Below are positions 3,479 to 22,400 of a DNA stretch of 23,205 nucleotides, piece after piece. Position numbers and translations under genes: made by a program. The stretch lies in IMG/VR virus record IMGVR_UViG_3300021091_000439, positions 1 to 23,205 of that record; one strand, written 5' to 3'. The notes beneath the pieces were generated by a model that saw nothing but the letters and a program-made list of their open reading frames with translations, ran no database searches and was not told where the DNA came from. Each line of letters starts with the position of its first letter. Position 1 is the first letter of the stretch. Source of the DNA: a virus.

Positions 3479-4195
3479 ATGACTTTACCAAAACCCCCAG
3501 TTCCTACTTATGAATTGGAATTACCATCAACAGGAAAACCAATTAAGTATAGACCATTTCTAGTTAATGAAGAGAAAATTCTTCTCATGGCTATGGAGTC
3601 TGAAGATGAAAAACAAATCACAACTGCGGTAAAAGATATTGTAAAAGCATGTGTGATTACAAAAGGAATTAAAATTGAGGAACTGGCATCATTTGATATT
3701 GAATATCTTTTCCTCAATATTCGTGGCAAGTCTGTTGGTGAAGAAGTTCAAATGAAAATCACATGCAGTGATGATGATGTCACTGAGGTCGATTATACTT
3801 TGAATATATCTGAGGTTAAGGTTCAGAAAGATCCAAATCATAATAATAAAATTATGTTGGATGATACTACTGGAATTGTTATGAAGTATCCTGGAATGGA
3901 TCAGTTCATTCAAACTCAGATTATGATGAAGACATTGAACGCAGAAGAAGTTTTTGATATCATCGTAGATTCTGTGCATCAAATTTTTGCAGGCGACGAT
4001 GTTTATGAAGCAAAAACTACACCCAAAAAAGAAGTTGAAGATTGGTTAGGTGGATTAACATCCAAGCAATTTGAAAAGATCAAAGACTTCTTCGCTACGA
4101 TGCCTAAACTTTCCCACACATTTAAGATCACCAACCCAAACACAGAAGTTGAATCGGAATATACTATTGAGGGTCTTGTAAATTTTTTCGGGTGA
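3479..4195 (+). CDS. gp26: Baseplate hub assembly protein gp26 (T4_baseplate family)
   Basis: A 238-aa protein, slightly longer than T4 gp26 (208 aa). The N-terminus has the family signature YELELPSTGKPIKYRPFLVN followed by EEKILLMAMES. The middle contains a conserved segment of the type IMLDDTTGIVMKYPGM, and the C-terminus holds DFFATMPKLSHTFKI. T4 gp26 is needed to assemble the central baseplate hub. Start 3479 has a good ribosome site (GGAG, about 7 nt upstream). The last codons (GTA AAT TTT TTC GGG TGA) contain two in-frame slippery heptamers, and the next short ORF lies in the -1 frame; see the findings for a possible gp26-gp51 frameshift fusion. By position just before the tape-measure-like genes, it may act as a tail assembly chaperone. 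Confidence 0.8.
   Translation: MTLPKPPVPTYELELPSTGKPIKYRPFLVNEEKILLMAMESEDEKQITTAVKDIVKACVITKGIKIEELASFDIEYLFLNIRGKSVGEEVQMKITCSDDDVTEVDYTLNISEVKVQKDPNHNNKIMLDDTTGIVMKYPGMDQFIQTQIMMKTLNAEEVFDIIVDSVHQIFAGDDVYEAKTTPKKEVEDWLGGLTSKQFEKIKDFFATMPKLSHTFKITNPNTEVESEYTIEGLVNFFG
4180..4189 (+). promoter_or_regulatory. Candidate -1 ribosomal frameshift site
   Basis: AAATTTTTTC contains two overlapping X-XXY-YYZ heptamers in the gp26 frame: A AAT TTT (4180-4186) and T TTT TTC (4183-4189). A -1 slip would leave the gp26 frame two codons before its stop and read CGG GTG AGC straight into the ATG of the 4198 ORF, giving a fusion of about 294 aa. I see no strong downstream hairpin. Confidence 0.5.
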
Positions 4196-7206: not shown

Positions 7207-9429
7207 ATGTTACTCAACGATCAAATAAAATCTAAAGCAAAACAAACGAGAGAAGAATCAAAAAGTTTTGAAACTTCTTTGGCATCTGAGTTTAAAAGTC
7301 TCACGGATAAGAGTGGGGAAAATTTAAACAAGGTAAATGAACAGTTAGATCTTTTAATAAAATCTGCAGAAAAGGAAAACGAGATTGCTAATCGCGTTGC
7401 AGTTTTATCTGCGATGTTTTCAAAGAATGCATTATTAGAAAGACTAGTCTTCAATAAAATAGAAGATAAATTATCTTCTTTTCCTAAGAGAACTGAAGAT
7501 GTAGAAATTAAAGAAGATAAACCAAAACAAAAATCTAAAACCAGAGGATTACCTACATATAAACCACCGAAGTCTCCAAAGAAAATGGCGAGTGGTGGCG
7601 TAACACCAGGAAGCAGTGCAAAGCAACAAGAAAAAACTGATAAAGAATTAATTCCATACTCTCAAACATTAGCAGTATCTTTAAAAGCATCTGGCATAGC
7701 CGCTATCACAACCTTGGGGCAATTCATTGAGGGAACTGGAGCATTAGGTGGATTTTTTGCACCATACATGAAGAGTGTAGTAAAACCTTTTGCTGCAGCA
7801 TTGGGCGTGGGTGGTAATCTTGTTAACAGTTTATTAGGTGGACCAGTTCAAGCGGCAACATTAAATTTAAATAAACAACAAAGACATTTTGGTAAAACAT
7901 GGGGTAGTTATTTAAATGATCCTTCGTTTATCAATCAATATATTGACAAAGAAGCAGCGGGCGATAGTTTAGATCCTGACAATCCTTCTGGTTATGTTCC
8001 AGCTAAGTGGGATGAAGATCCAGAATTTGTTGCATTGGTAAATGCTTTTGCTCAAGAATGGAATTTAAACGCTGCTGGATTGCTTGCATTAATGGCAAGC
8101 GAAAGTGGATTGAGACCAAATGCTCGGAATAGTGATGGGTGCGTAGGATTGATTCAGTTCTGCCCTAATGGAGGATTGGGTGGAACTGGTAAAACTGCTG
8201 ATGAATTGAGAGCAATGACTCGTTCTCAACAGTGGCCTTATGTAACTAACTATTGGATTAAATCTGGTTTAGAGAAAGGAATGACTGCGGGTGATCTCTA
8301 TGGATTAACGCATGTTCCAAACTGGTATAAAAGAGCAGTAAAAGGAAAACCTATTGGATCTGCGGCAAGAATGAATGCGGCTGTTGCTACATCAGCTGAT
8401 GGTGGTGCTTATTGGCGTAACCTACGATTAGATTTTAATGGTGATGGTAAAATTACTGTGCTAGATTACGACCAAGAAGTTAAAAGAGTCGGAATAAAGT
8501 TTGGAATTAAATACGAATCTGGTGGATTTAGAAAGAAAAAAAATATATTTGATAATACTCCTTTTTTAGTATCTGGTTCAGAGTCTGGATTTGAACAGGA
8601 AATATTTGGAACAAAAGTTATACTGCATGGTAGTGAGATTGTTGTTCCTGGAGATAAAGGATTCTATGTTTTTCCTGTTGCTAACCGAAGATATAATTTT
8701 TGGTATGACTTTATAAAACAAAATGTATTTGGCGAGAGAGGAGATGGAACTATAGAACGTTGGAAACAAATTGCTAGTGGAACATTTGGCAGTGGAAAAT
8801 CATTTTCTGCTGGTGGAACAGCAGAGTTTTGGAAAGTTGCTGCGCTAGCTTCTAAAGAAGATAGTTTACATTCACAGGGACAAGCAGATGTTGCACAGTC
8901 TTTATATAATCGTGCTGCAATTGGTTCTTATCCTGGCGGAAAAAGTATATCATCTATTATAACTGCTCCTGGACAGTATCAACCAACATTTAATAATGCT
9001 GGTAAATGGAATGCTATTAAAGATCGAAAATCTGCTATTGCTGCGGCTGGGAATGCAAGTAAAGTTGATATGGCAGCAAAATCTATAACAAATCCCACTT
9101 TACAGCAAGCAGCAGCAAGATTTGTTGGTGGCAGAACAGATTTTATGGGAGAAAGTCAGAAACCTTATATGAAACCTGGCGATATTACTAGAGGACCAGG
9201 ATACAATTTCCATGGATGGTTTTATGATGCCAAATTACCAAAGGCAGCACCTATACCTAGATCTATTGCTACTCCAGACAAACAAAAGCCAACAGTAGTT
9301 GTTAATAAAATGTCTGCTCCTTCTCAACCAAACATTATTCAACAAACACAAGGAGCTATAATGGAATTTACTAATATGATTTTTAATCCACATCGAGTTA
9401 AAAAAGAACTTAACTTAAAGCGTATCTAA
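7207..9429 (+). CDS. Large tail protein with SLT and SleB-like hydrolase domains (tape-measure-like 2)
   Basis: A 740-aa protein starting 1 nt after the previous stop. Layout: N-terminal coiled coil (about 1-95); basic linker; hydrophobic module (about 155-245) ending RHFGKTWGSYL, paralogous to one in the preceding protein; lytic-transglycosylase-like domain (about 265-390) with LMASESGLRPNA (predicted catalytic Glu299) and GLIQF (314-318); an EF-hand/dockerin-like loop at 409-420 (DFNGDGKITVLD); a LHGSEIVVPGDKG segment typical of tail tape measure proteins; and a SleB/Hydrolase_2-like domain (about 540-620) with ASKED (Glu551), GQADVAQSLYNR and APGQYQP. The C-terminus (TVVVNKMSAPSQPN) is also of tape-measure type. 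It likely degrades peptidoglycan during infection. Domain calls are by motif; both catalytic glutamates are present. Confidence 0.65.
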   Translation: MLLNDQIKSKAKQTREESKSFETSLASEFKSLTDKSGENLNKVNEQLDLLIKSAEKENEIANRVAVLSAMFSKNALLERLVFNKIEDKLSSFPKRTEDVEIKEDKPKQKSKTRGLPTYKPPKSPKKMASGGVTPGSSAKQQEKTDKELIPYSQTLAVSLKASGIAAITTLGQFIEGTGALGGFFAPYMKSVVKPFAAALGVGGNLVNSLLGGPVQAATLNLNKQQRHFGKTWGSYLNDPSFINQYIDKEAAGDSLDPDNPSGYVPAKWDEDPEFVALVNAFAQEWNLNAAGLLALMASESGLRPNARNSDGCVGLIQFCPNGGLGGTGKTADELRAMTRSQQWPYVTNYWIKSGLEKGMTAGDLYGLTHVPNWYKRAVKGKPIGSAARMNAAVATSADGGAYWRNLRLDFNGDGKITVLDYDQEVKRVGIKFGIKYESGGFRKKKNIFDNTPFLVSGSESGFEQEIFGTKVILHGSEIVVPGDKGFYVFPVANRRYNFWYDFIKQNVFGERGDGTIERWKQIASGTFGSGKSFSAGGTAEFWKVAALASKEDSLHSQGQADVAQSLYNRAAIGSYPGGKSISSIITAPGQYQPTFNNAGKWNAIKDRKSAIAAAGNASKVDMAAKSITNPTLQQAAARFVGGRTDFMGESQKPYMKPGDITRGPGYNFHGWFYDAKLPKAAPIPRSIATPDKQKPTVVVNKMSAPSQPNIIQQTQGAIMEFTNMIFNPHRVKKELNLKRI

Positions 9430-9435
9430 TAAATA
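9428..9435 (+). promoter_or_regulatory. Possible internal late promoter
   Basis: AATAAATA overlaps the stop codon of the preceding gene and lies 24 nt before the ATG at 9459, the same spacing as at the other late promoters in this window. It fits NATAAATA. It falls at one of the larger gaps in the operon (29 nt), so a late start here is plausible but unproven. Confidence 0.45.
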
Positions 9436-9458
9436 CTTTTAATAGGTAGGATAAATAG

Positions 9459-12203
9459 ATGTCTTTTGGAACCGTAAGTTCAACACCAACTGGGGGAGGA
9501 TCAACCCTTACGGGATTCATATTATCTAAAGCGTCTCAAAGTAGAAAAGAAGCGAAAAAAAAGGATAGAACAGCAGAACGCAAAGAGAAAAAGAAAGATC
9601 AATCAACTACTGAGACAAAAAGTAAAGAACAAAAATCAAATCCAGCAAGTAAATTGCTGGGCAGTCTTCCAAAAATAGGAGATCTTTTTTCTTTTAAAAA
9701 ACCTCAGATAAAAAGTGAGGAACCAAAAACCAGAACGTCAGGGGGAGCAACTGGATTAGCACAGATTCTCACTCAAGGATTTGGATCTCTTAGTGCTGAT
9801 ACGATGGGTATATCATCTGGATTGGCATCAGTAACTCAGGTGATGAATAGTTCTTTAAAAGCACAATCATTTACTGCGACTGGTATTCAAACTATTGCTA
9901 GTATACTATCAGATCAACTAGAGAATCAAGGATCTATATTATCTACTGTCAAATCTCTTCGCCCTGGCGGCGGTGGTGGCGGAGGAGGTAAGAGTTTGTT
10001 CGGAACTTCTAAATCTAGAGGAACATCATCAGATACTTTAACCGAAGCATTAATAAATGCAGCAATAGAAAAAGGTATTGGTAGATTTATTACATCAAGA
10101 TTATCAAGACTCAATCCATTCAAAAAATCTCCAATAACTCAAGGAGCGGGTGGCAAACCCACTAGACCTAGAATACCTGGCACTGGTCCTAGGGTTACTA
10201 CGAGTGGTGGAGCTCCTGCTCCAGCAGCAAAGCAACCATGGTGGAAAAAGATGTTACCTTTCGCAGATGATGCTGCAAAAGGTGGCACTAAAGCAGGAGC
10301 AAAGGGTGTATTAGGAAAGGGTGTCGAAGCAGGTAAAGGATTACTTGGCAAAGCAAAAGGTTTTGGTGACGATGCACTTCGCATGGGTGGATCATTATTA
10401 GATAATCCTATCACAAAAAGATTGGCAATAGCAGGAACAAAATTCGGTGGAAGAGCTCTTCCTTTTGCTGGATCTGGATTTAGTGCCGCTGAGGCAGCAG
10501 ATAGAGCAAAAAAAGGAGATGCAGTTGGTGCATGGTTAGCAGGGTTAGGTGCTGGATCTGGAACAGTTGCTACTGGAGCTGCTATAGCATCAGCAGGACC
10601 TCAAGCAGTAGCAACAGGTCCCACTGCTTTAATAGCGGAAGGAACATCTTTAGTTGCTGATCTTGGGTTGCTTGGATATGATATTTTTAGAGCATTTAAA
10701 CCAATGGCTCAGGGTGGAGTGATGGTTGGAGAGTCTGCTGGTTCTCAGGGTGAAGAAGTAATGTCACTGACTTCTGCAGCAGGCAGAAAGATTACAGGTG
10801 ACAAAGGATCTACTTCTGACCCTGGAATGCAGGCATCAGCAGCATCAACTTTATCAGTAGTTGATCAATTTATTAAAGGTATGGGGCCATTAGGTGCTCC
10901 AGTTGCTCAAGCATTAGGGCCAGACATTGCTAATCTTACTAGAACTTTTGGTATGTCTCAGACACTTCCTAATTTAAAACTAGGAGGTGGTAAATTTAAA
11001 GAAGATGGAAATGCTAAAAGAACTAGGGATAACTTCTTACAAAAATTAATTTCTGGTTCATTGGAAGCATTGGGTGCCAAGAAAAAGGGAGATGCCACAG
11101 CACCACCAACAGGAACAGCGCCGCCATCTAATCCTGGAGATACTGGAACAGCAGCACAACAAAAAGCACAACAACAGGCAGCTGCTTCTATGGTAAGTTC
11201 AGTTAATAATATGCAAATTCCTGGTAAACCACAAGGAACTATGGGAACCACTGGTGTTAGTTTACCTGGAGGTAGTGTTGCTCCTTCTACGCCAGACAAA
11301 TTAAGACCAGTAGAAAATGGAAACAATAAGTTTTGGTATGATAAAGATGGTCAAATATATCATTGGCAAGCAGCAAAAGATAAGGCAGGAAAACCAGTTG
11401 CATCTGAATTAAAAGCATTGAATAGAACTGAAATGGGTGAAGGTGCTGATGTATCTGGAAACTTAATGGCAAACCAACCACAGTCAACTTCAAAAAGACG
11501 TTTCTTTATACGCGATCCTTATACTGGTAAAGTTAAATTATATCAACCTTCATGGATGGAAACTAGTGGAGTTGGTGATATTCTCCAGTGGATTGGAGGC
11601 AAAGGTAAGGATGAGTATGATAATAATATTCCTCAGGGATATTACAGTTATAAATGGGACGATGTTTACATGGGTAAAGGTGGGGATAATAAAGCAAAAT
11701 GGAAAAGAGCATCTGGTGCTGGTGATATTCCTCCTTTCGGTGGAACTGCTCAAAAGTTTCAGAAAGGTGGTAAGGTAAAACCATGGTGGGATTTCTTAAA
11801 CTTAACTCAACAAAAAAAACCAAAGGAAAGAGCACTAGGTTCCAAGGCAAAACTAAAAGGCAAAGATGTTTATTGGGCTGGTAAAGATTACGGTTGGCAA
11901 CAACAAAAAGATAGTGGAAGTGCCACTATGAATGCACTGAACAAACCAAGTGTTCAGAAAAAATTTATTCAGGATAAACCAAAACCAAAACCAAAACCAG
12001 CTAGAGCACCAGTCGCTGCTACTCAGCAAGCAAGTTCTGATATGGATTCGACAACAGTTATTAATGTTGTTAGCGCGGGCGGGGGAGGATCTGCTCCAAT
12101 TGCATCTAATACACAAACACAAGCATCATCAAACTATATAAGTAATCCATGGCCTAATGGATTAGCAGGAGTTATATGTACATCTCCATGGAGTGTAGTG
12201 TAA
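9459..12203 (+). CDS. Large Gly/Ala-rich tail protein (tape-measure-like 3)
   Basis: A 914-aa protein of unrecognised family. Visible parts: a highly charged Lys/Glu N-terminus (about 25-60); a coiled or helical segment (about 100-167) with IASILSDQLENQGSIL; a poly-Gly run at 170-177; a basic region; an Ala/Gly-rich hydrophobic stretch (about 325-410); a tape-measure-style GGVMVGESAGSQGEEVM segment; a Pro/Gln-rich linker; a C-terminal region with FWYDKDGQIYHW and YKWDDVYMGKGG; a PKPKPKPKPA linker near 840; and a final hydrophobic tail ending CTSPWSVV. No hydrolase motif is visible. Size, low complexity, hydrophobic stretches and position just before the gp27-like hub gene suggest a tape measure or hub-tube component, possibly the counterpart of T4 gp29. 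The stop abuts the next ATG without a gap. Confidence 0.55.
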   Translation: MSFGTVSSTPTGGGSTLTGFILSKASQSRKEAKKKDRTAERKEKKKDQSTTETKSKEQKSNPASKLLGSLPKIGDLFSFKKPQIKSEEPKTRTSGGATGLAQILTQGFGSLSADTMGISSGLASVTQVMNSSLKAQSFTATGIQTIASILSDQLENQGSILSTVKSLRPGGGGGGGGKSLFGTSKSRGTSSDTLTEALINAAIEKGIGRFITSRLSRLNPFKKSPITQGAGGKPTRPRIPGTGPRVTTSGGAPAPAAKQPWWKKMLPFADDAAKGGTKAGAKGVLGKGVEAGKGLLGKAKGFGDDALRMGGSLLDNPITKRLAIAGTKFGGRALPFAGSGFSAAEAADRAKKGDAVGAWLAGLGAGSGTVATGAAIASAGPQAVATGPTALIAEGTSLVADLGLLGYDIFRAFKPMAQGGVMVGESAGSQGEEVMSLTSAAGRKITGDKGSTSDPGMQASAASTLSVVDQFIKGMGPLGAPVAQALGPDIANLTRTFGMSQTLPNLKLGGGKFKEDGNAKRTRDNFLQKLISGSLEALGAKKKGDATAPPTGTAPPSNPGDTGTAAQQKAQQQAAASMVSSVNNMQIPGKPQGTMGTTGVSLPGGSVAPSTPDKLRPVENGNNKFWYDKDGQIYHWQAAKDKAGKPVASELKALNRTEMGEGADVSGNLMANQPQSTSKRRFFIRDPYTGKVKLYQPSWMETSGVGDILQWIGGKGKDEYDNNIPQGYYSYKWDDVYMGKGGDNKAKWKRASGAGDIPPFGGTAQKFQKGGKVKPWWDFLNLTQQKKPKERALGSKAKLKGKDVYWAGKDYGWQQQKDSGSATMNALNKPSVQKKFIQDKPKPKPKPARAPVAATQQASSDMDSTTVINVVSAGGGGSAPIASNTQTQASSNYISNPWPNGLAGVICTSPWSVV

Positions 12204-13613
12204 ATGGCAGATCTTAATGCTGAAGTAAGAAAGGTTGTTCTTACTGATACGAAAGGAAAACAACATTTTTTAACTGGGCAAAATCCAGAGGCACAACTTA
12301 ATGCTATTAGAATCTATGAAAGCATAGAGTTAAATTCTATTGCTGCCGAACTTGAAGTATTTGACACCGCAATTAATTTAATAGGATCTCTACCTATTGT
12401 TGGAACAGAGACTGTTGAGATTGAAATGGTTGCACCAAATATTTCTAACACGGTATATAAATGGAAGTTTGTTGTTTATGGGGTTAGAAATAGAATTGTT
12501 TCTAAAAATATTCAATTATATATTTTAGATTTATTTTCTCCAGAAGCACTGAGAAATGAAACATTAAGAATTGGTAAAGCAATAGAAGGAACAGGTGATG
12601 CAATCGTCAAACAAATTTTAAGTAATTATGTAGAGACTAAAAAACCAGTATTAACTGAGACATGCAAGTATAAGTTCAAACAAATACCAGCATTGAAAAG
12701 ACCATTTGATCTTATCACATCGATGCTTCCTGAATGTGTGTCGTCTGCAACTACAGTTCCATCTAGTTCCTCATCTTCAACATCTAAAGCGGGAGGATCT
12801 TCTAGTGCTTCTGGTGGTAAAACTGAGGCAGCAACAGCCAGTAATTCTAAAGTTATTTCTGGATCTGCAGGTTACATGTTCTTTGAAACTTATGATGGTT
12901 ATGTATTCAAATCTATTGATGCATTGATAAAAGAAAATCCCACAAAGCACCAGGAATATGTTTATGGTATGGCACAAAGAGAAGGATCAGATGAGAAAAC
13001 AAATTCATATTTAATTCTTAATTATGCTTTTGGTAGTCAAGAAAATATTCTACAGAAGATGAGATATGGTGTCTACTCCTCTATGATTTCATTCTTCAAT
13101 CCATCTACATTAGATTACGAAGAATACTTTTTTGATTTAACAAAAGAATATCCTAAGATGGTTCACTTGGGAAAGGATGAAGATATCCCAGAAAATATTA
13201 AAAAATTGTCACAGTTCCCTTCTAGAATTATGTGTCAGTTTTATGATCATGAAACTTTCCATACTGGAACTACGATTGCAGATCCTCAAGTAGCACAAGG
13301 AAAAGGTGGCACTCAGTATCCAGATTTCAGAAAACAATGGATGGCACAATCTATCAGTAGAAGTATGATACTGAACAATCAGATACTAAATATCACTATA
13401 CCTATTAATTTTAATATTAGAGCTGGTGATAAATTGAATGTTAAGTTACCAAACTTATCTGTATCATCAGAAAGAGAAAAGGAAAAATACGATAAAGCAA
13501 ATAGTGGATTATATCTTGTCAAAAAAATATCCTATGATATTACTAGAGATTCTGATAAAGGCGTGATCGCTGTCTGTAACTTAGAACTTATCCGAGATAA
13601 CTTAGGGAGTTAA
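12204..13613 (+). CDS. Baseplate hub protein, gp27-like
   Basis: A 469-aa protein. The N-terminal block (AIRIYESIELNSIAAELEVF, then DTAINLIGSLPIVGTETVEI) and the following beta segments (KWKFVVYGVRNRIVS, IQLYILDLFSPEALRNE) have the pattern of gp27/gpD/VgrG hub proteins, which form the trimeric ring at the tail tip holding gp5. T4 gp27 is 391 aa; the extra length is largely a Ser/Gly/Ala-rich linker at about 181-225 separating the two halves. The C-terminal part (INFNIRAGDKLNVKLPNLS, LYLVKKISYDITRD) resembles the second barrel-like domain of hub proteins. Its place two genes before a gp5 OB-fold protein supports the role. The gene begins immediately after the preceding stop. Confidence 0.65.
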   Translation: MADLNAEVRKVVLTDTKGKQHFLTGQNPEAQLNAIRIYESIELNSIAAELEVFDTAINLIGSLPIVGTETVEIEMVAPNISNTVYKWKFVVYGVRNRIVSKNIQLYILDLFSPEALRNETLRIGKAIEGTGDAIVKQILSNYVETKKPVLTETCKYKFKQIPALKRPFDLITSMLPECVSSATTVPSSSSSSTSKAGGSSSASGGKTEAATASNSKVISGSAGYMFFETYDGYVFKSIDALIKENPTKHQEYVYGMAQREGSDEKTNSYLILNYAFGSQENILQKMRYGVYSSMISFFNPSTLDYEEYFFDLTKEYPKMVHLGKDEDIPENIKKLSQFPSRIMCQFYDHETFHTGTTIADPQVAQGKGGTQYPDFRKQWMAQSISRSMILNNQILNITIPINFNIRAGDKLNVKLPNLSVSSEREKEKYDKANSGLYLVKKISYDITRDSDKGVIAVCNLELIRDNLGS

Positions 13614-13615
13614 TT

Positions 13616-13828
13616 GTGGAGAATATTCAAAAACATATCGAATATGATAAAAAAATTCTAGATGATCCTTTAGCATCATCTCAGGCACGTAGACATGTTG
13701 AAGAAGAATTAGGATCTTTAGAAAGATATCAACAATCTCATCCAAATGATGATCATGATCCTACGCCTTTGGAATTATATTGTAATGACAATCCTAGTGC
13801 ATCAGAATGTAAAATGTATGATGATTAA
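13616..13828 (+). CDS. cp12: CP12-like Calvin-cycle regulator (auxiliary metabolic gene)
   Basis: A 70-aa acidic protein with a GTG start preceded by a good Shine-Dalgarno (AGGGAG, about 6 nt upstream). Its C-terminus, DPTPLELYCNDNPSASECKM plus YDD, closely follows the CP12 signature: DPL, a Cys pair eight residues apart (Cys56, Cys65), Asn-Pro between them, and a terminal acidic-aromatic motif. HVEEELGSLE at 27-36 corresponds in position to the CP12 core VEEL helix, though the full AWD-VEEL is not kept. CP12 bridges GAPDH and phosphoribulokinase in a redox-dependent inhibitory complex; cyanophages carry it to shift host carbon flux toward the pentose phosphate pathway. There is no N-terminal Cys pair, as in some other short variants. 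It lies tightly between hub genes (2-nt gaps), so it is likely co-expressed late. Confidence 0.7.
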   Translation: MENIQKHIEYDKKILDDPLASSQARRHVEEELGSLERYQQSHPNDDHDPTPLELYCNDNPSASECKMYDD

Positions 13829-13830
13829 TC

Positions 13831-16473
13831 ATGTTGTTACCTGAGTTAAATTTACCAGTTGGATTTGCTGGCAAAGATGGATTCTATTGGTGGTTTGGTC
13901 AGGTAGAATCTGAAGCAGACCCGAAGAATTCAAATCGTCATAAGGTAAGAATCGTAGGTCATCATGTGATGAGTTGCGACGCTGTTAGCGTTGATGATTT
14001 GCCATGGGCAGTTTGTATGTTCCCTGTTACTCATCCAGCAGCAGAAGGTAACAGCACTTACACGCCGTCTGGATTGCAGAAGGGTGCATGGGTCATTGGA
14101 TTCTTTATGGATGGTGCTAGAGGGCAGCAACCTGTTATCATGGGCACTCTCGGTAAAGTTACTAATTCATCTAAAGATACTAGTCTTTCTAATAAGTTTG
14201 GAAATGATGAGTGTTTAGCATTCAAACGTTATGTTCCTGATACTAATCCTATCATCACTCAACCAGCAGGATCTAAGTCTAAGAAGGATGCTACTGCTAG
14301 ACCTGGAGGAAATAATCCAGTTGGTCGTGCATCAGTTGTATCTGCTGCTGGTGGTGCTGAAGGTCCATCAGGTGCTAATCCTTACGCAAGATTTGGATGT
14401 ATTGAACGTGCTGATGCAAAGTGCGATGATCCCAATCAAAGTAAAAGTAGATTTGAACAAATTCTTACCGAATTATTTGGAGCTGTATCACAAAATGGTG
14501 GTCAAATAGGAACACAATTACTCAGTGAGGCATCAGGAAAACTATTTGATTATGCTAGTGCTGCCAATGGATATGTAACTAGAGTGTTTGGAGTTGCTAA
14601 AGCATATTTGAGAGCAGGTAAATTTAAATTGTATGCATTGCTTAAGGAAGGAGTTAAAGCAATCATCAAATTTGTTATGGCAATTCCTAAACCAGATGTA
14701 AATCCAAAGACGGGGGAAGCAATAAAAACAAAGAAGACTGGTGCATTAGGAAAATTAACTGAATGGTTGAACGAACAACTAGGTAAAATTAATTGTCAGA
14801 TTGCTGATCTAGAAGATAAGGTTTTTAATTTTTTATCTAATCTATTATTTGGGTTACTTTCTGATGTTGTTTCTGGTGCTTTGTGTGTTATCGAAGCAAC
14901 GGTATCAAAAATACTATCAGAATTAGAATCATTCTTGACTAGCACAATCAGTGCTATTCTTGGACCACTTCAATCTATTTTGGGTATCATTGCCAGCCCT
15001 CTGAATATTATTGGTGCTGCACTAAATTACATATTCACTCTGTTTGGTATCACATGTTCTGGTGCTGGAAATAAATGTGCTGATGCAGAGAATTTAAAAC
15101 TTTGCACTGGATCTGCAAACAAAAAGAAACCAGGAGAAGACGATTTTAAAGCATTAGATGATTTAATTGCCAACATAGAAAAAGATGGAGTAACCGAATT
15201 ACAAACTAGTTGTGAGCAATCGCAAAGTTTACCTTGCCCAGAACCAACAGCAGCAAATGTTGCTGGAGGAACACCTAACCCAGATGAATTTACTGGCCCC
15301 CCAGTATTCGCTCCAACTGATCCACCTGACGAAGATTTTGATGATTATTTTAATGACATACCTAATGATATAGATCAGGTTCAAGACACGCCAATTCCTC
15401 CAACACCAGTAGCAGTTAACGAAACAGTAGCATCCGAAGTAACTGCACTTGTTGCGGGTTCTACTGTATTGGTAGCAACTGTGAATGGTATTGATACATA
15501 TGTTTATCCATCTTCGGGTGAAGTTCAAATAGAATCTGCGTCAACAATTCAATTCTCACCTACCTTCTCAATAATAGAGACAACTAATTACACTTTAACT
15601 GCTAACAAAACACAAGTTTCTCAGGGAGAAACAATAACTTTTACATTAACATGCACTAATGGTAATGTCTCAGATGGCACGGTATTTAATTATATTATGT
15701 TTGGTTTGATTCAAGCATCTGATTTTTCGGATGGAACTACTTCTGGATCAATGATAATGAATGGTAATGTTGCGATTAAAAACATAACAATATCTAATAA
15801 TATAAGTATTGCTACTAGTGAGACAGTATTATTCTCAGTTGCTCAATCAGGATTAGCTGTTAATTTTGATATTATAAATTCAAACTATGATCCAACAGAT
15901 CCTTTCGATCAACCAAAGCAACTACCTATACCTAATACTTTCACTCCTCCAGTATTAGGAGAACCAGAAGTAGATAACAATGGCAATATAATTTTTATAC
16001 CTATCTTGAATCCAGGAGATCCTTATTCATTTCCACCATTTGTAAATATTACTGGCGAAGGTTTCGGTGCGGCTGCTACTGCTGAATTAGATACGGAAGG
16101 AAAGTTGTCTAAGATAATCATAAAAAGACCAGGAGTAAATTACTTACCAAATAAAAAACAAGATACTAATTGTGTTCTGGATAGTTTTGTTATAATTAGA
16201 CCTGGATCTGGATACACTAGTGATACTGTAATACTTCTAGATGGAGAACCTAATCTTGCAAAACCAGTAGTCAATGATGCTGGCAATATCATTTCGGTTG
16301 ACATAATAAATAAGGTCAAAACCTATGAAAAACTACCAAAGGTAGAAATTATTGGTGGTGGTGCAGGAGCAAAAATGATACCATCACTTTCGTGTTTAGC
16401 AACTCAACAATACAATCAATATGTTACAGATTTTGCTCCTTCTGGAACTGATAGTGTGATTGATTGCCCCTGA
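13831..16473 (+). CDS. gp5: Baseplate hub gp5-type protein, OB-fold, no lysozyme domain
   Basis: An 880-aa protein. Residues about 15-115 are the gp5 N-terminal OB-fold: KDGFYWWFGQVESE, RHKVRIVGHH, LPWAVCMFPVTHP, LQKGAWVIGFFMDG, QPVIMGTLG. T4 gp5 (575 aa) continues with a lysozyme domain and a triple beta-helix needle. Here I see neither; instead comes a helical region (about 195-300), a strongly hydrophobic amphipathic segment (about 320-410), a Cys-containing stretch, a Pro/Asp-rich linker (about 475-530), an Ig-like beta domain (about 580-690, NYTLTANKTQVSQGETITFT), and a C-terminal beta region (about 720-870) with RPGVNY and RPGSGYTSD motifs like the gp53 extension. The needle is probably supplied by the next gene. 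The start follows the CP12-like stop by 2 nt. Confidence 0.75.
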   Translation: MLLPELNLPVGFAGKDGFYWWFGQVESEADPKNSNRHKVRIVGHHVMSCDAVSVDDLPWAVCMFPVTHPAAEGNSTYTPSGLQKGAWVIGFFMDGARGQQPVIMGTLGKVTNSSKDTSLSNKFGNDECLAFKRYVPDTNPIITQPAGSKSKKDATARPGGNNPVGRASVVSAAGGAEGPSGANPYARFGCIERADAKCDDPNQSKSRFEQILTELFGAVSQNGGQIGTQLLSEASGKLFDYASAANGYVTRVFGVAKAYLRAGKFKLYALLKEGVKAIIKFVMAIPKPDVNPKTGEAIKTKKTGALGKLTEWLNEQLGKINCQIADLEDKVFNFLSNLLFGLLSDVVSGALCVIEATVSKILSELESFLTSTISAILGPLQSILGIIASPLNIIGAALNYIFTLFGITCSGAGNKCADAENLKLCTGSANKKKPGEDDFKALDDLIANIEKDGVTELQTSCEQSQSLPCPEPTAANVAGGTPNPDEFTGPPVFAPTDPPDEDFDDYFNDIPNDIDQVQDTPIPPTPVAVNETVASEVTALVAGSTVLVATVNGIDTYVYPSSGEVQIESASTIQFSPTFSIIETTNYTLTANKTQVSQGETITFTLTCTNGNVSDGTVFNYIMFGLIQASDFSDGTTSGSMIMNGNVAIKNITISNNISIATSETVLFSVAQSGLAVNFDIINSNYDPTDPFDQPKQLPIPNTFTPPVLGEPEVDNNGNIIFIPILNPGDPYSFPPFVNITGEGFGAAATAELDTEGKLSKIIIKRPGVNYLPNKKQDTNCVLDSFVIIRPGSGYTSDTVILLDGEPNLAKPVVNDAGNIISVDIINKVKTYEKLPKVEIIGGGAGAKMIPSLSCLATQQYNQYVTDFAPSGTDSVIDCP

Positions 16474-16485
16474 TAGAGGTAAAGA

Positions 16486-18012
16486 ATGGCGACTAGTTGG
16501 TTACAGTTACAAAATCAATTAAAAACAGGAGCTAAAACATTAGCTCTACCAGCAGATCCTTCTAATTGTGGTGGGGGATCAAGTAGTCTGCTGCCAGATT
16601 CTATATTAAATTTACCAAATCCAACGGAAGCAACTCAGGTAGTTAATGATTTCTTATCTAATGTTCAGGGAACTATAGATGAGTTTGGCGCTGAAGTCAT
16701 GGGAGTGCTTCAAGATATTGGGGCATGGATTCCACCTGAACTTCAAGGTCAAGGCACAGGATCTTCGAAAGAAGAAGCAGAGAGTTTAAAACCAGCAGCA
16801 GTAGATAAAGTTCAGCAAGAAAATAAAAATCCAGAAGTTTGTGTAGTTTCTGGGCACAATACTCAGACTGGAGATGGATACTACTCAGTAATTAATAGTA
16901 GTGGTTCATCTATGCATTTGGATGCTGATGGTAGTGTAATTTTTAGAGCAGCAAAAAACCCATCAGATGTTCCAACTACAGGAAGATTTGATGTATGGGC
17001 AGATGGAAACGGAATCATTCATATTGGTGAAGGGTTACATATACAAGTAAAAAATAACAGCAAAATCTGTGGAACTAGTGCATACTCTTTATATGTGACG
17101 GGTGACATTGATATTCAATCGACAGGTGGAAACATTGGATTGAAAGGAGATAATATTAAATTGTCTGCTGACAAGTCTTTAGAATTGATTGGAGCTGATA
17201 TTAAAATACATGCAGGTGGAGGTCAAGGAACGTCAAAGAGCGCAAATACAAAGTCACCTACTGAGTATGGTGGATCTATTGATATGCGTTGTGGAACATA
17301 TAAGGTAAGCTATTCAACAAAACAAGGTGTTGAGACAGCAAGTTATGCTAAGTCAGAAGGAGAAGTTGCTTTCTTGATGCCAAATACCCAAGGAAATTTT
17401 GGTATTGAATCTGCAGGAACACTATCAATCAGAACTGGTGGTGACATGCTAGAGGAGATTGGTGGTAGGAAAATGACTGAGGTTATGAATGCTCCGTTGG
17501 GAGGATTAAGCTTGGATTTTCCAACAACACCACTAATCAATGGAGTATCTGCTGGATATTATATTGTAAATAAAAATCCAATTCCTCCTGCTATTGGTGC
17601 TAGTGCTGAACTAGTGCCTCCATTAGTGTATATTCACTCTCCATTAGTAAGTGGAGATGGTGGGTCGCCTGGGCATGGATTTAGATTCTCTACCTTAGGA
17701 AAAGGAGATGTTAATTTTTATACAGCTGCAGGAAATTGGACATTAGCAAACGAAAATAATTTAGTTGCGAGTATTATAACACCTTTTAGCACAAAAGTCA
17801 CTAGCACTCCAAAAATCTTGACAACTATGAAAGAGCCAGGTATGTATCTTGCCTCGCTATTGTCAAGGGTGTTTATAAGTTCTAATACGGAGGTCATCAC
17901 TAAAGCAGGTCCTTTCTCTCTTGCACCACCCGTTAGAGGTGTTGGAACTTATATTAAGGTGTCTCCTATAGCAACAGAGATCTCAAACAAGACAGGAATT
18001 TATTTGAACTAA
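16486..18012 (+). CDS. Beta-helix needle-like tail spike protein (gp5 C-terminal-like)
   Basis: A 508-aa protein with a clear ribosome site (AGAGG about 7 nt before ATG). The N-terminal 100 residues are helical with Pro/Gly-rich linkers. From about 115 to 260 the sequence is beta-rich, and about 195-255 shows the alternating repeat of gp5/VgrG triple beta-helices: LYVTGDIDIQSTGGNIGL, then KGDNIKLSADKSLELIGADI. The pattern continues more loosely (NFGIESAGTLSIRTGGDMLE). In T4 this needle is the C-terminal third of gp5 and punctures the outer membrane. A separate gene directly after the OB-fold gene suggests a split cell-puncturing device. No tip metal-binding HxH motif stands out. It is the last gene of the rightward late operon. 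Confidence 0.6.
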   Translation: MATSWLQLQNQLKTGAKTLALPADPSNCGGGSSSLLPDSILNLPNPTEATQVVNDFLSNVQGTIDEFGAEVMGVLQDIGAWIPPELQGQGTGSSKEEAESLKPAAVDKVQQENKNPEVCVVSGHNTQTGDGYYSVINSSGSSMHLDADGSVIFRAAKNPSDVPTTGRFDVWADGNGIIHIGEGLHIQVKNNSKICGTSAYSLYVTGDIDIQSTGGNIGLKGDNIKLSADKSLELIGADIKIHAGGGQGTSKSANTKSPTEYGGSIDMRCGTYKVSYSTKQGVETASYAKSEGEVAFLMPNTQGNFGIESAGTLSIRTGGDMLEEIGGRKMTEVMNAPLGGLSLDFPTTPLINGVSAGYYIVNKNPIPPAIGASAELVPPLVYIHSPLVSGDGGSPGHGFRFSTLGKGDVNFYTAAGNWTLANENNLVASIITPFSTKVTSTPKILTTMKEPGMYLASLLSRVFISSNTEVITKAGPFSLAPPVRGVGTYIKVSPIATEISNKTGIYLN

Positions 18013-18092
18013 TAGCGATTTCAAAATTGACCTTCAAATACCAAAAGGTCGCAAAAAAAATCTCGGGTAATTTTTGGTCAAAAAAGTCGAGC
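18013..18092 (+). other. AT-rich gap upstream of the early promoter
   Basis: About 80 nt with no ORF. It contains a 6-bp inverted repeat (GACCTT 18029-18034 / AAGGTC 18045-18050, 10-nt loop) followed by an A-run rather than a T-run, so it is not a normal rightward terminator. AT tracts just before the -35 (18071-18086) could act as an UP element. No convincing terminator for the preceding late operon is visible. Confidence 0.4.
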
Positions 18093-18121
18093 TTGACACA
18101 ACTCCTAAATATCGCTATACT
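18093..18121 (+). promoter_or_regulatory. Sigma70-type early promoter
   Basis: A perfect -35 TTGACA (18093-18098), a 17-nt spacer, and -10 TATACT (18116-18121, one change from TATAAT) predict a start near 18128, about 24 nt before the ATG at 18152. This is a host-polymerase promoter, unlike the late octamers elsewhere in the window, and should drive the 18152-19341 cassette early in infection. Confidence 0.85.
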
Positions 18122-18151
18122 AGCAATGTGGCGCTTTGAGGTCTGAGTCTT

Positions 18152-18340
18152 ATGAATCTCCAAAACCCTTCCGAACAGGCTCTTGACAAGGTAACGATAG
18201 ACCTGTATAATAAGAAGATAATCATCAGAGGAGAGGAGGGAACTGCTCTTACCTTCAAATGTGCTACAATCAATGAGTTGGTTGACTTAAAAGAAAAATG
18301 TGCTAGACTACTCAAAACAGAAAATTTCATCTATCGTTGA
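18152..18340 (+). CDS. Small hypothetical protein, first gene of the early cassette
   Basis: A 62-aa protein of no family I recognise. It is a compact alpha/beta-like sequence with a beta hairpin pattern (KVTIDLYNKKIIIRGEEG, then TALTFKCATI) followed by an amphipathic helix (NELVDLKEKCARLLKTE), with two Cys. It starts about 24 nt downstream of the predicted sigma70 transcription start, and GAGG about 11 nt before the ATG is a weak ribosome site. Its stop codon is 1 nt from the first base of tRNA-CAU, so the tRNA must be processed from the same transcript. Small early proteins in this position often modify host functions, but there is no direct evidence here. Confidence 0.7.
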   Translation: MNLQNPSEQALDKVTIDLYNKKIIIRGEEGTALTFKCATINELVDLKEKCARLLKTENFIYR

Positions 18341-18341
18341 T

Positions 18342-18414
18342 GCTGGTTTAGCTATCTGGTGAAAGCACCCGACTCATAATCGGATACAGGTGAGTTCGAT
18401 CCTCGCAATCAGCA
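18342..18414 (+). tRNA. tRNA-Met or tRNA-Ile2 (anticodon CAU)
   Basis: A 73-nt cloverleaf: acceptor GCTGGTT/AATCAGC (one G-T), D stem GCT/AGC, anticodon stem-loop with loop CTCATAA (anticodon at 18375-18377), T arm GTGAG/CTCGC with TTCGATC, discriminator A. There is no encoded CCA. The G1-C72 pair argues against an initiator. CAU could read AUG, or AUA if the host lysidine synthase modifies C34; the sequence alone does not decide. The first anticodon-stem pair (C-A) is mismatched. Confidence 0.85.
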
Positions 18415-18417
18415 TAA

Positions 18418-18500
18418 GGGAGCATGGTGGAATCGGTAGACACACCAGACTTAAAATCTGTTGGGCAGTGCCCGTGGGAGTTCAAGTCTCCCTGCTCCTA
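18418..18500 (+). tRNA. tRNA-Leu (anticodon UAA)
   Basis: An 83-nt class II tRNA: acceptor GGGAGCA/TGCTCCT (terminal G-T), D stem GTG/CAC with GG in the loop, anticodon loop CTTAAAA (anticodon at 18452-18454), long variable arm GGGC-AGT-GCCC, T arm GGGAG/CTCCC with TTCAAGT, discriminator A. No encoded CCA. It reads UUA, a codon favoured in this AT-rich genome. It lies 3 nt after the tRNA-CAU. Confidence 0.92.
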
Positions 18501-18502
18501 TT

Positions 18503-18527
18503 TCTCACTAAATACGTTGTAGTGGGA
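18503..18527 (+). other. Hairpin between tRNA-Leu and the 88-aa ORF
   Basis: TCTCACTA (18503-18510) can pair with TAGTGGGA (18520-18527), 8 bp with one G-T and a 9-nt loop. There is no following T-run, so it is not a terminator. It starts 2 nt past the tRNA and ends 5 nt before the ATG at 18533, so it could affect tRNA 3'-end processing or ribosome access. Confidence 0.4.
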
Positions 18528-18532
18528 ATGTT

Positions 18533-18799
18533 ATGAAATACACACTATCGCAAGCATATGTCTTTTATATGGGACAGGTTGTTCGTATGTATTTCATACA
18601 AAATCTTCCTTATACCTATGATGAACTTCCACAATTAATTCAAGATCATCCTGCAGTTCAAACTGACGCATTATCTCATAGAGATTATGATGATGAAGAT
18701 ATGTGGAAAATTTCAAATTATCTTATAATGGAAGAAATGCATCCTTTGATGTTTGACTTAGAAGTAGAAAACCCCGAATTGTTACCTAAAGATGATTGA
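18533..18799 (+). CDS. Hypothetical acidic protein upstream of cpeT
   Basis: An 88-aa acidic protein I do not recognise. The N-terminal half is aromatic-rich (YVFYMGQVVRMYFIQNLPYT) and could form an amphipathic or membrane-peripheral helix; the C-terminal half is Asp/Glu-rich (RDYDDEDMW, DLEVENPELLPKDD). There is no signal peptide. Its last codons overlap the cpeT start by 8 nt (ATGATTGA), so the two are translationally coupled and may act together. The ATG at 18533 has only a poor Shine-Dalgarno and lies just after a hairpin. It is read from the sigma70 promoter at 18093 as part of the early cassette. Confidence 0.75.
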   Translation: MKYTLSQAYVFYMGQVVRMYFIQNLPYTYDELPQLIQDHPAVQTDALSHRDYDDEDMWKISNYLIMEEMHPLMFDLEVENPELLPKDD

Positions 18800-19277
18800 C
18801 GAATTTTGTGAATACTTTGAGGGAACTTTTGAAAATAAAATGCAAGCAATGTGCGAACCCACAAAGTTTGCTATGATTGAACTACTTCATATTCCTTATG
18901 GTGAGCGTAAATATCGTTGTATTCAACGTTATTATGTTGACAAGAATCAATATCGAAATACTATTATTTCGGTAGAACAACAAGATTCTAGAATTCTTGT
19001 AAAGAACTATAAGGAAGAAACGCCTGATAGTGGGCAGTTGACATACTTAGAAGGATGTGATACAATATTTGAGAGGATAGGCAATGAGTTTCACGGCAAA
19101 AATCTTTGTAAGACCTGCTATGTGAATTGGTCGGGGAAACAAACCTACCTTCAAATAGAGAGTATTCTTGGAAGAGGATACTATCGCGTTATAGACAAAG
19201 GATATGACGTAAACACTGACGAACATATATGGGGTTCCTTTTATGGGAGCTTCCAGTTCGTCAAATCGCCTGAGTAG
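18792..19277 (+). CDS. cpeT: CpeT/CpcT-family phycobiliprotein lyase (auxiliary metabolic gene)
   Basis: A 161-aa protein with the marks of the T-type bilin lyase family: EYFEGTFENKMQA near the start, IQRYYVDKNQYRNTI (44-58), LEGCD (86-90), a Cys pair at 106/109 in the usual FxGxxLCxxC-like region, DKGYDVNTDEHIWGS (135-149) and a final YGSFQF. Cyanobacterial CpcT/CpeT attach or carry phycobilins for the beta-subunit of phycocyanin or phycoerythrin; the cyanophage version studied in the literature binds phycoerythrobilin but its lyase activity differs from the host enzyme. The role in infection is thought to be keeping light harvesting or managing pigment. It overlaps the preceding gene by 8 nt. 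Its last 10 nt, including the TAG stop, are the 5' end of tRNA-Thr. Confidence 0.9.
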   Translation: MIDEFCEYFEGTFENKMQAMCEPTKFAMIELLHIPYGERKYRCIQRYYVDKNQYRNTIISVEQQDSRILVKNYKEETPDSGQLTYLEGCDTIFERIGNEFHGKNLCKTCYVNWSGKQTYLQIESILGRGYYRVIDKGYDVNTDEHIWGSFYGSFQFVKSPE

Positions 19278-19341
19278 CTCAGCTGGATAGAGCAACGGTT
19301 TTGTAAACCGTAGGTCGTCGGTTCAAGTCCGACCTTAGGCT
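19268..19341 (+). tRNA. tRNA-Thr (anticodon UGU)
   Basis: A 74-nt cloverleaf: acceptor GCCTGAG/CTTAGGC (one G-T), D stem GCTC/GAGC, anticodon stem ACGGT/ACCGT with loop TTTGTAA (anticodon at 19302-19304), T arm GTCGG/CCGAC with TTCAAGT, discriminator T. No encoded CCA. It reads ACA/ACN codons. The first 10 nt overlap the end of cpeT, so the same transcript cannot serve as intact mRNA and processed tRNA. Confidence 0.93.
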
Positions 19342-19364
19342 TCCGTGTGAAGGAAGTGGAATTA

Positions 19365-19388
19365 CCTGAGGTTCGCCTCAGGTTTTTT
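19365..19388 (+). terminator. Rho-independent terminator of the early cassette
   Basis: Perfect 7-bp stem CCTGAGG (19365-19371) / CCTCAGG (19376-19382) with a stable TTCG tetraloop, followed by six T. It lies 23 nt after tRNA-Thr and would end transcription from the sigma70 promoter at 18093. Confidence 0.92.
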
Positions 19389-19390
19389 CT

Positions 19391-19398
19391 TATAAATA
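19391..19398 (+). promoter_or_regulatory. T4-type late promoter
   Basis: Exact TATAAATA, 2 nt past the terminator T-run and 40 nt before the ATG at 19438. It would give late transcription of the large structural gene, insulated from the upstream early cassette by the terminator. Confidence 0.8.
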
Positions 19399-19437
19399 AC
19401 TCAGAAGAAATCACCATATTCGCGGGTCACTGAGAAG

Positions 19438-22400
19438 ATGCCATTAACAAGATTAGATAATCTAATTTCTAGTAAGACTGGAAAATATCTATATGTTTCA
19501 CCTGATGATTTTAATGCAACAGATGCGCTTGATAACAGAGGTAATTCTCCCCTAAGACCTTTTGTTAGCATTCAGAGAGCATTTCTTGAGGTAGCACGCT
19601 TCTCGTATTTACCTAATGTCGATAATGATAGATTTGACCAGTTCACTATCATGTTGTCTCCTGGCAATCACTATATTGATAACCGCCCAGGTGTAGCGGA
19701 TGTTGCTTCTTTACCGATTTTTCAATATAATCAAGCAGCGCAAGAATGGGAAGCAAATACTAATGTAAGTTTTGATCTTTCTGACACAAATAATATCCTT
19801 TATAAGTTTAATGGTCGTGATGGTGGCGCGACTATTCCTAGAGGAACTTCACTTGTCGGAACAGACCTTCGTAGAACACAAGTTCGTGCTCTGTATGTTC
19901 CAGATCCTGCAGATAAGGATATTCCTCGCACAGCACTTTTTAACGTAACTGGTGGTTGCTATTTCTGGCAATTTACAATCCTTGATGGTGATTTAGAGTC
20001 AAGTTCACCACTTTATAATGTTGGATCTCCTGTTGGTGTTGGTAAAGTTTACACTCAACCAAACGACAGCACAAATTTAGCAATTCCCGAATTCTCTCAT
20101 CACAAAATTACAAACTTTGTGTTTGCTGATAGAGAAGATTTAGGATTACTGTATAGAAAAGTATCTCGTGTATTCAGCGATTATCAAGCATCTATTGATG
20201 ATGTATATGTAGAAGGAGCTTCTTCACCTGTTACTGAATCATGGAATAGCACAACTACATATCAAATTGGAGATAAAGTTCTTTATGATGGAAATGCATA
20301 TGTTGCGAGTGCAGTTTCTACTAATGTAATTCCAAGTAACGACGAACTTAAGTGGGGTCGTCTTGTTATTCGTGGTCGTGAATTTGACTATAGAGTTCAA
20401 GAAAATAGAATTGTAGGTCCTCTCTCTGATGCTATTCGTCTAGACGAAATTACTATTACTGATAGTAACCCCACTGGTCTTGTTACTGTAAAGGTAAGAA
20501 CTAAAATTAACCATGGATTCTTCCCTGGTCAATATGTTGCTATTTCTAACAATGGATTGAATACTACACTAAATGGTGTATTCAAAGTTACCTCTATTAG
20601 TCAAATTGATCCTAAAGAATTTGAATATAAAGTTGCTACAACTGCAACTGGTTTAGGATTGATTAGTGGAGCAGTTTATACTGTTGTTTCGTCACCTTCA
20701 TTGGATACTAACGCTACTGTTCAGGCGGAAGTTGACTCGGTAGAATCTGCTTCACCATACGTTTTTAACTGTTCGATTCGTTCAACTTGGGGTATTTGTG
20801 GTATCTGGGCGGATGGTCGCAAAGCAACTGGTTTTAAATCGATGGTTATTGCCCAGTATACGGGTGTTTCTCTACAGAAAGATGACCGTGCGTTCATTCG
20901 TTATGATGAGTTCAGCAACACCTGGAATCAAGCTCCTCTAACCGATGCATTTGCAACAACCCCTTATCACATCAAAGGTGATGCATATTGGAAGGATGAT
21001 TGGAGAAACTTCCACGTTCGTGCTTCAGATGACTCCTTCATTCAGAACGTTTCGATCTTCGCGGTTGGTTTCGCTGATCACTTCCTGCTTGAGTCTGGTG
21101 GTGACATGTCTATCACCAACTCTAACTCCAACTTTGGTAATACTTCGATGCATTCGAAGGGATTCAAAGGATTTGCTTTCTCTCAAGATAAAGGAGGATA
21201 TGTTACACACGTTGTTCCTCCTAAATCTCTATCAACACTTAAAACTACAAAGCAACAATACTATGCATTTGATGTTCAGTTAACTAGAGATGCTAATAAC
21301 TTCACCAAGTTGTATCTTGGATCTGATGATGCTACAAATCCAGAAAGTCGCCCAGCTGCGTCTATTGGTGGATATAGACTTGGTGCAAGAAGAAATGAAA
21401 AGATTTTTGTTAAATTAGATACTACTGCTCCTAAGCAAGCAGAACTATCTCCATCTGGATTTAAAAAGTGGGTTGCTTCATTATCAACACTAACACCATC
21501 TAGTTCACGTTCAGTTGAAGATGCAACTACTCTATATGTTTCATCTACCACAAATATTGCTGTTGGTAATCTTGTAAAAGTAGACGACGAATATTTTCTA
21601 GTTAGTGCTAAAACTGCAACATCTTTAACTGTAAGCAGATCGCAACTAGGATCTCTGCCAACAGAGCACCTAAATGGATCTACTGTTACCAAGTATGTTC
21701 AAAATACTCAAGCATCGACCGTAGTTAATGAAACGGTAGATGCCACTGAGACAATTTTAACTCTTACTAACACTACTGGATTTATTCCTAATGGATTTGC
21801 ACAAATCAGTAATAATCAGACATCTGTTACTGAGATTGTTCGTATTGTTTCAGTAGAGAATAATGATATTGTTGTTCAACGTGGAGCACTTGGAACTATT
21901 GCTGTGCAGCAACCAGTTGGATCAACTGTTACTGCTACCTTTTTAAACAATACATATTCGCCAGCATCTCCAGCAGTTACTACTACTTTAACTGAAAGAT
22001 ATCCAAAGATTATTCCTGCGTCTAATGCTTCTGAAAGAGATTACAATTTAGCACAAGATGCTGCTAATTTAATTGATGCAAATAAAACGTTTATTCAGGC
22101 AGAAGCATTTGGGTATATTTTAGAGAAATTCCCATATTTACAAAATATTCCATATGTTAATCCAAACATTACTGCTGAGACTGGAAGATATAGAGATGCT
22201 TCTAATTTAATCAAAGGAAACCGACAAGAGATTATTGATTATGCATATAATCAATTAACCACTGCTTTTCCAACATTTGTGAATCCAGATGCTGCTAAGT
22301 GCAAGCGTGATATCGGATACATCATTGACGCTATTGCAGATGATCTTTACGATGGTGGTAATGCTCACATGGTTGAAGCAACTAAATCATATTTTGATGG

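Follow-up and report, generated by a model that had tools for sequence, protein, structure and literature searches.

The gene at positions 13616 to 13828 on the plus strand of the window (the whole virus record analysed here, 23205 bases) encodes, by its sequence matches, a true CP12, a protein known to inhibit the host carbon-fixing cycle. Among the T4-like cyanophages sampled, the order gp27-cp12-gp5 is the majority arrangement, and the position of the gene is not anomalous. In the reading preferred here, to which a probability of about 0.6 is given, this phage CP12, with its C-terminal Cys pair only, would be transcribed from a late-type promoter at 9428, bind host GAPDH and remain cytoplasmic.

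The window is a fragment of a T4-like cyanophage. Its minus strand carries an open-ended ORF, the tail tube cap, the DNA end protector and the head closure protein. The plus strand begins with the tail tube, baseplate hub, hub assembly catalyst and three large structural-type ORFs, one of which (9459 to 12203; phrog_11440) is the first gene of a putative transcription unit. It is followed by a gp27-like baseplate hub/tail protein (12204 to 13613; phrog_350, E 7e-94), cp12, the gp5 baseplate hub subunit and tail lysozyme (13831 to 16473; Gp5_OB PF06714; phrog_1922, E 1.5e-146) and a second baseplate hub/tail lysozyme-like ORF (16486 to 18012; phrog_4540, E 7e-13), the presumed last gene of the unit. 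Three tRNAs, two small ORFs, cpeT and a long fibre-like ORF that runs off the end complete the plus strand. The cp12 ORF encodes 70 residues and is tightly enclosed: the gp27-like stop TAA (13611 to 13613) is followed by two nucleotides (TT) and the cp12 GTG at 13616, and the cp12 stop TAA (13826 to 13828) by two nucleotides (TC) and the gp5 ATG at 13831. A good ribosome-site-like stretch, AGGGAG (13604 to 13609), ends 6 bases before the GTG and lies inside the last gp27-like codons (TTA GGG AGT TAA). One GGG codon, a codon that makes up 5% of Gly codons here, falls within this stretch, which is intact or almost intact in close relatives.

The protein matches Pfam PF02672 over residues 2 to 69 (E 4.4e-12; profile positions 3 to 70 of 70; 47 bits against a curated cut-off of 22.7), phrog_627 (E 4.2e-27) and CP12 chains of the PDB (E 1.5e-5 to 2.5e-4), and because of these matches a chance resemblance to CP12 is untenable; a search of NCBIfam gave no match. 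The C-terminus reads C56-N-D-N59-P60-S-A-S-E-C65-K-M-Y-D-D, and its final 21 residues can be aligned with CP12 proteins and peptides solved in complex with GAPDH (3zdf, 6gfo). An AF2 model (pLDDT 91.3) places helices at residues 4 to 15, 22 to 41 and 51 to 58. Fold comparison of the model with the PDB ranked mostly generic helical pairs first, with the CP12-GAPDH complex 6gfo at rank 15 (Z 4.8, rmsd 5.1, 57 residues aligned). Matches to the protein occur in 375 phage records, nearly all of them cyanophages, and an identical copy is present on a second metagenomic contig. Strong purifying selection on phage cp12 is shown by a median pairwise dN/dS of 0.075 among close orthologues, and the C-x8-C spacing is kept in 76/76 distinct phage CP12s collected. 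The preliminary description of this DNA is accurate as to the ORF, its GTG start and ribosome site, the 2-nt gap at each end and the C-terminal pattern; its assignment to CP12 is borne out by the profile search and the PDB chains, and the Cys pattern is present in the orthologues.

A scan of residues 1 to 55 found no Cys. An N-terminal Cys pair is likewise absent from all 76 distinct phage CP12s, with a single Cys in one of them, and from all 22 picocyanobacterial CP12s retrieved, a host set gathered with phage-derived patterns that could miss forms carrying the pair. According to a review, classical CP12 occurs in all cyanobacterial groups except the marine picoplankton (PMC3906501). Since picocyanobacterial CP12s also lack the pair, its absence from the phage protein is best read as an inherited type rather than decay. 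The earlier suggestion that only the GAPDH-type C-terminal contact is preserved therefore stands in part: the C-terminal segment does align with CP12s from GAPDH complexes, but the missing N-terminal pair, common to picocyanobacterial CP12s, points to a type kept as acquired and not to a loss.

Comparison with known CP12s places the window protein among those of cyanomyoviruses. The cyanomyovirus CP12 (T4-GC 337; Sullivan et al. 2010) has the same length, the C-terminal Cys pair, no N-terminal pair and the same location between gp27-like and gp5; the window gene differs only by sequence divergence and by the tight 2-nt spacing without a spacer promoter. The CP12 of DSL-LC03 (WJZ47894.1) is 71% identical to that of the window. 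Identity to host CP12s is 40-51%. The picocyanobacterial protein, exemplified by that of Synechococcus WH7803 (72 aa), resembles the phage form in its C-x8-C, its lack of N-terminal Cys and its HDPTPLELYC...ECRVYDD segment, whereas the phage proteins are two residues shorter and carry DDPxxSxQxRRH in place of a host segment. In a tree of 70 columns, the phage sequences form a clade apart from those of the hosts (support 100/96). With classical CP12-N/C (T. elongatus 6gfo, Arabidopsis CP12-2), the window protein shares the C-terminal GAPDH-binding segment, but it lacks the N-terminal Cys pair and the AWD of the core AWD_VEE motif; the corresponding stretch reads ARRHVEEEL, in which the VEE part alone is recognisable.

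The location of cp12 had been presented as unexpected for an auxiliary metabolic gene (AMG), an impression that does not survive comparison with other phages: a position near gp5 has been known since 2010, when cp12 was described as lying close to psbA or to gp5, often with tRNAs beside it (Sullivan et al. 2010; PMC3037559). Among 76 distinct cp12 genes from IMG/VR and phage records, a sample biased to sequences resembling that of the window, 65 lie between gp27-like and gp5. A recognisable gp27-like gene stands directly upstream in 62 of the 76; in three more, gp5 follows cp12 without a gp27 match upstream, and in two or three of these the contig ends there. The hub order is seen in DSL-LC03, DSL-LC02, Syn9, S-CREM1, S-WAM2, ACG-2014e, S-RIM2, P-SSM3 and S-SZBM1, and in marine members, cpeT, tRNAs or a 2OG-Fe(II) oxygenase often stand between cp12 and gp5. 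The identity of the gp27 and gp5 relatives falls to about 25%, while CP12 holds at 41-78%. Exceptions are P-HM1 and P-HM2, in which cp12 adjoins talC, S-TIM5, in which it lies in a metabolic gene region, and several contigs with cp12 among small ORFs. These non-hub genes are scattered among the hub ones in the CP12 tree, and at least four changes of position are needed. Every one of the closest relatives by gp27 (L100-L107) has cp12, and no pair with and without the gene was found among them. The contig NZVD01000042.1, assigned to a Rhodopirellula bin, has gp27-like, a phage-type CP12 (5001 to 5228 of the extracted locus, L117) and cpeT and is most likely a mis-binned cyanophage fragment. In P-SSM2, the 88-aa PSSM2_066 (3809 to 4075 of locus L089) matches the CP12 C-terminus weakly over its last 24 residues (E 0.2).

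Conservation of the place between hub genes in most relatives could also mean that the product is a baseplate-hub protein merely resembling CP12. This is extremely improbable given a Pfam match well over the cut-off, the identity to host CP12s and the repeated occurrence of cp12 away from hub genes. No hub or baseplate family was matched by the product in Pfam, PHROGs or NCBIfam; a T4-like baseplate hub family was considered for it and is disfavoured by the PF02672 match and the absent hub-profile matches. Packaging of CP12 with the tail hub and delivery at infection, raised in the preliminary description, is scarcely more probable. The two virion genes that flank cp12 would suit it, as would the finding of other non-structural proteins in cyanophage virion preparations (PMC10665884, PMC9602691), but P-HM1, P-HM2, S-TIM5 and other contigs have their cp12 away from the hub region. 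In S-SZBM1, moreover, CP12 (SSZBM1_64) adjoins the gp27-like SSZBM1_65, and the virion proteome of 30 proteins includes the latter and neither CP12 nor gp5 (_61) (PMC9146016 Table 1), even though a 9-kDa protein was detectable. That evidence is weak because gp5 is absent too and hub proteins are near the detection limit; the idea of packaging nonetheless finds no support.

Transcription of cp12 was considered through the cyanophage late motif, NATAAATA (PMC2984593). The plus strand of the window has six copies. Two, at 2787 and 2793, precede the tail-tube gene by 37 and 31 nt; two more, at 9428 and 9450, precede the 9459 ORF by 31 and 9 nt; another, at 19391, lies 47 nt upstream of the fibre-like ORF, and the sixth is within gp5. 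On the minus strand, a copy precedes the head closure gene by 32 nt. Matches to TATAAATA with one mismatch were at chance level, so only NATAAATA was used, by position; a sigma-70 scan of 11500-19500 was also at chance overall (28 against 27.7), and only sites of at least 11/12 were used. The window has four of these on its plus strand, where 0.7 would be expected. Within 100-120 nt upstream of the cp12 start there is neither a late motif nor a sigma-70-like site above 9/12, a score common by chance. The promoter-like motif most suitably placed for cp12 is AATAAATA at 9428 to 9435, two genes upstream, which would reach cp12 by read-through and whose position is conserved in relatives; a second late-promoter-like motif, GATAAATA, lies at 9450-9457.

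In other phages, exact NATAAATA occurs at -45 to -20 of cp12 in 19 of the 76 genes, against 0.38 expected. The relaxed motif N[ACT]TAAATA is found at -45 to -18 in 28 of the 29 hub loci with a spacer of at least 20 nt, in one of the 32 tight hub loci (spacer below 20 nt) and in none of 61 control windows; both the 20-nt threshold and the relaxed motif were chosen after inspection of the upstream sequences, and the motif often partly overlaps the gp27 stop codon TAA. Sigma-70-like sites of at least 10/12 precede cp12 in only 3 of the 62 hub loci; Syn9 has one of 10/12 at 89 nt upstream and S-TIM4 a perfect one. New here are the late motif at 9428, which appears best placed to serve this stretch of the window, and a putative late-type promoter motif at a fixed distance in the spacer-bearing hub loci. 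The cp12-talC unit of P-HM2, whose CP12 is orthologous to that of the window, differs in lying in the psbA/talC region, in its overlapping early- and late-type motifs and in its middle expression. Upstream of this cp12 (5266 to 5301 of the extracted locus, L133), TTGACA-17-TAGGAT overlaps CATAAATA, an arrangement that may serve this middle-expressed gene as a dual early/late promoter.

The promoter architecture at the hub loci favours late transcription of the cp12 found there, in agreement with the late timing envisaged earlier, but the reports on P-HM2 and Syn9 point the other way. The P-HM2 gene is in the middle cluster of that phage, whose AMGs are "exclusively" middle (PMC5082946), and a review table lists, secondhand, the hub-located Syn9 cp12 (gp17) as expressed in early infection (PMC6359870). 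Published data, middle at another locus and early at the hub locus, do not settle the timing. Middle control in cyanomyoviruses has been proposed to use overlapping early and late promoters (PMC2984593), a proposal that the middle timing and overlapping motifs of P-HM2 fit; since that middle gene also has CATAAATA, a late motif is not enough to determine the expression class. The main rival to late transcription, a serious contender of rather less than even probability, is that cp12 is early or middle despite its position, through upstream read-through or a promoter inside gp27-like missed by consensus scans, with the position a historical insertion accident. Both expression reports, the overlapping-promoter proposal and the sigma-70-like sites of Syn9 and S-TIM4 speak for it; against it are the chance-level score upstream of the window gene and the rarity of such sites at hub loci, where late motifs are strongly over-represented.

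Under late transcription from 9428, the promoter would read the 9459 ORF, gp27-like, cp12 and gp5, and translational coupling within the unit would raise the CP12 level with that of the hub genes; some earlier read-through into cp12 may occur. By homology with the solved CP12-GAPDH complexes, the C-terminal disulfide hairpin and YDD tail would bind host GAPDH in the cytoplasm, not the virion, and lower the use of NADPH by the Calvin cycle. Recruitment of PRK as well does not follow from the sequence, since both N-terminal hallmarks, the Cys pair and the core-motif AWD, are missing. Infection models put CP12 with early or middle metabolic genes, and the detailed expression data considered here come from P-HM2, with its cp12 elsewhere and under a different promoter; late expression of the hub-located gene, the common form in the sample, would call for a new view of when the Calvin cycle is blocked. 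A wider and still doubtful proposal is that, in most T4-like cyanophages, hub cp12 is a late-class metabolic gene that renews or prolongs this block during virion assembly, whereas P-HM-type phages have the gene next to talC, with a dual promoter and middle timing.

Downstream of the hub genes, the tRNA/small ORF/cpeT cassette has three sigma-70-like sites of 11/12 or 12/12 (18093-18121, 18183-18211 and 19038-19066), of which the first, a strong promoter-like TTGACA-17-TATACT before the cassette, contrasts with the region upstream of cp12. An 88-aa protein encoded at 18533-18799 (phrog_4134, unknown function) overlaps the start of cpeT and is 82-91% identical in close relatives, above the surrounding virion genes. 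At 19364-19398, upstream of the fibre-like ORF (19438), a terminator-like hairpin with a T run leads straight into an exact TATAAATA.
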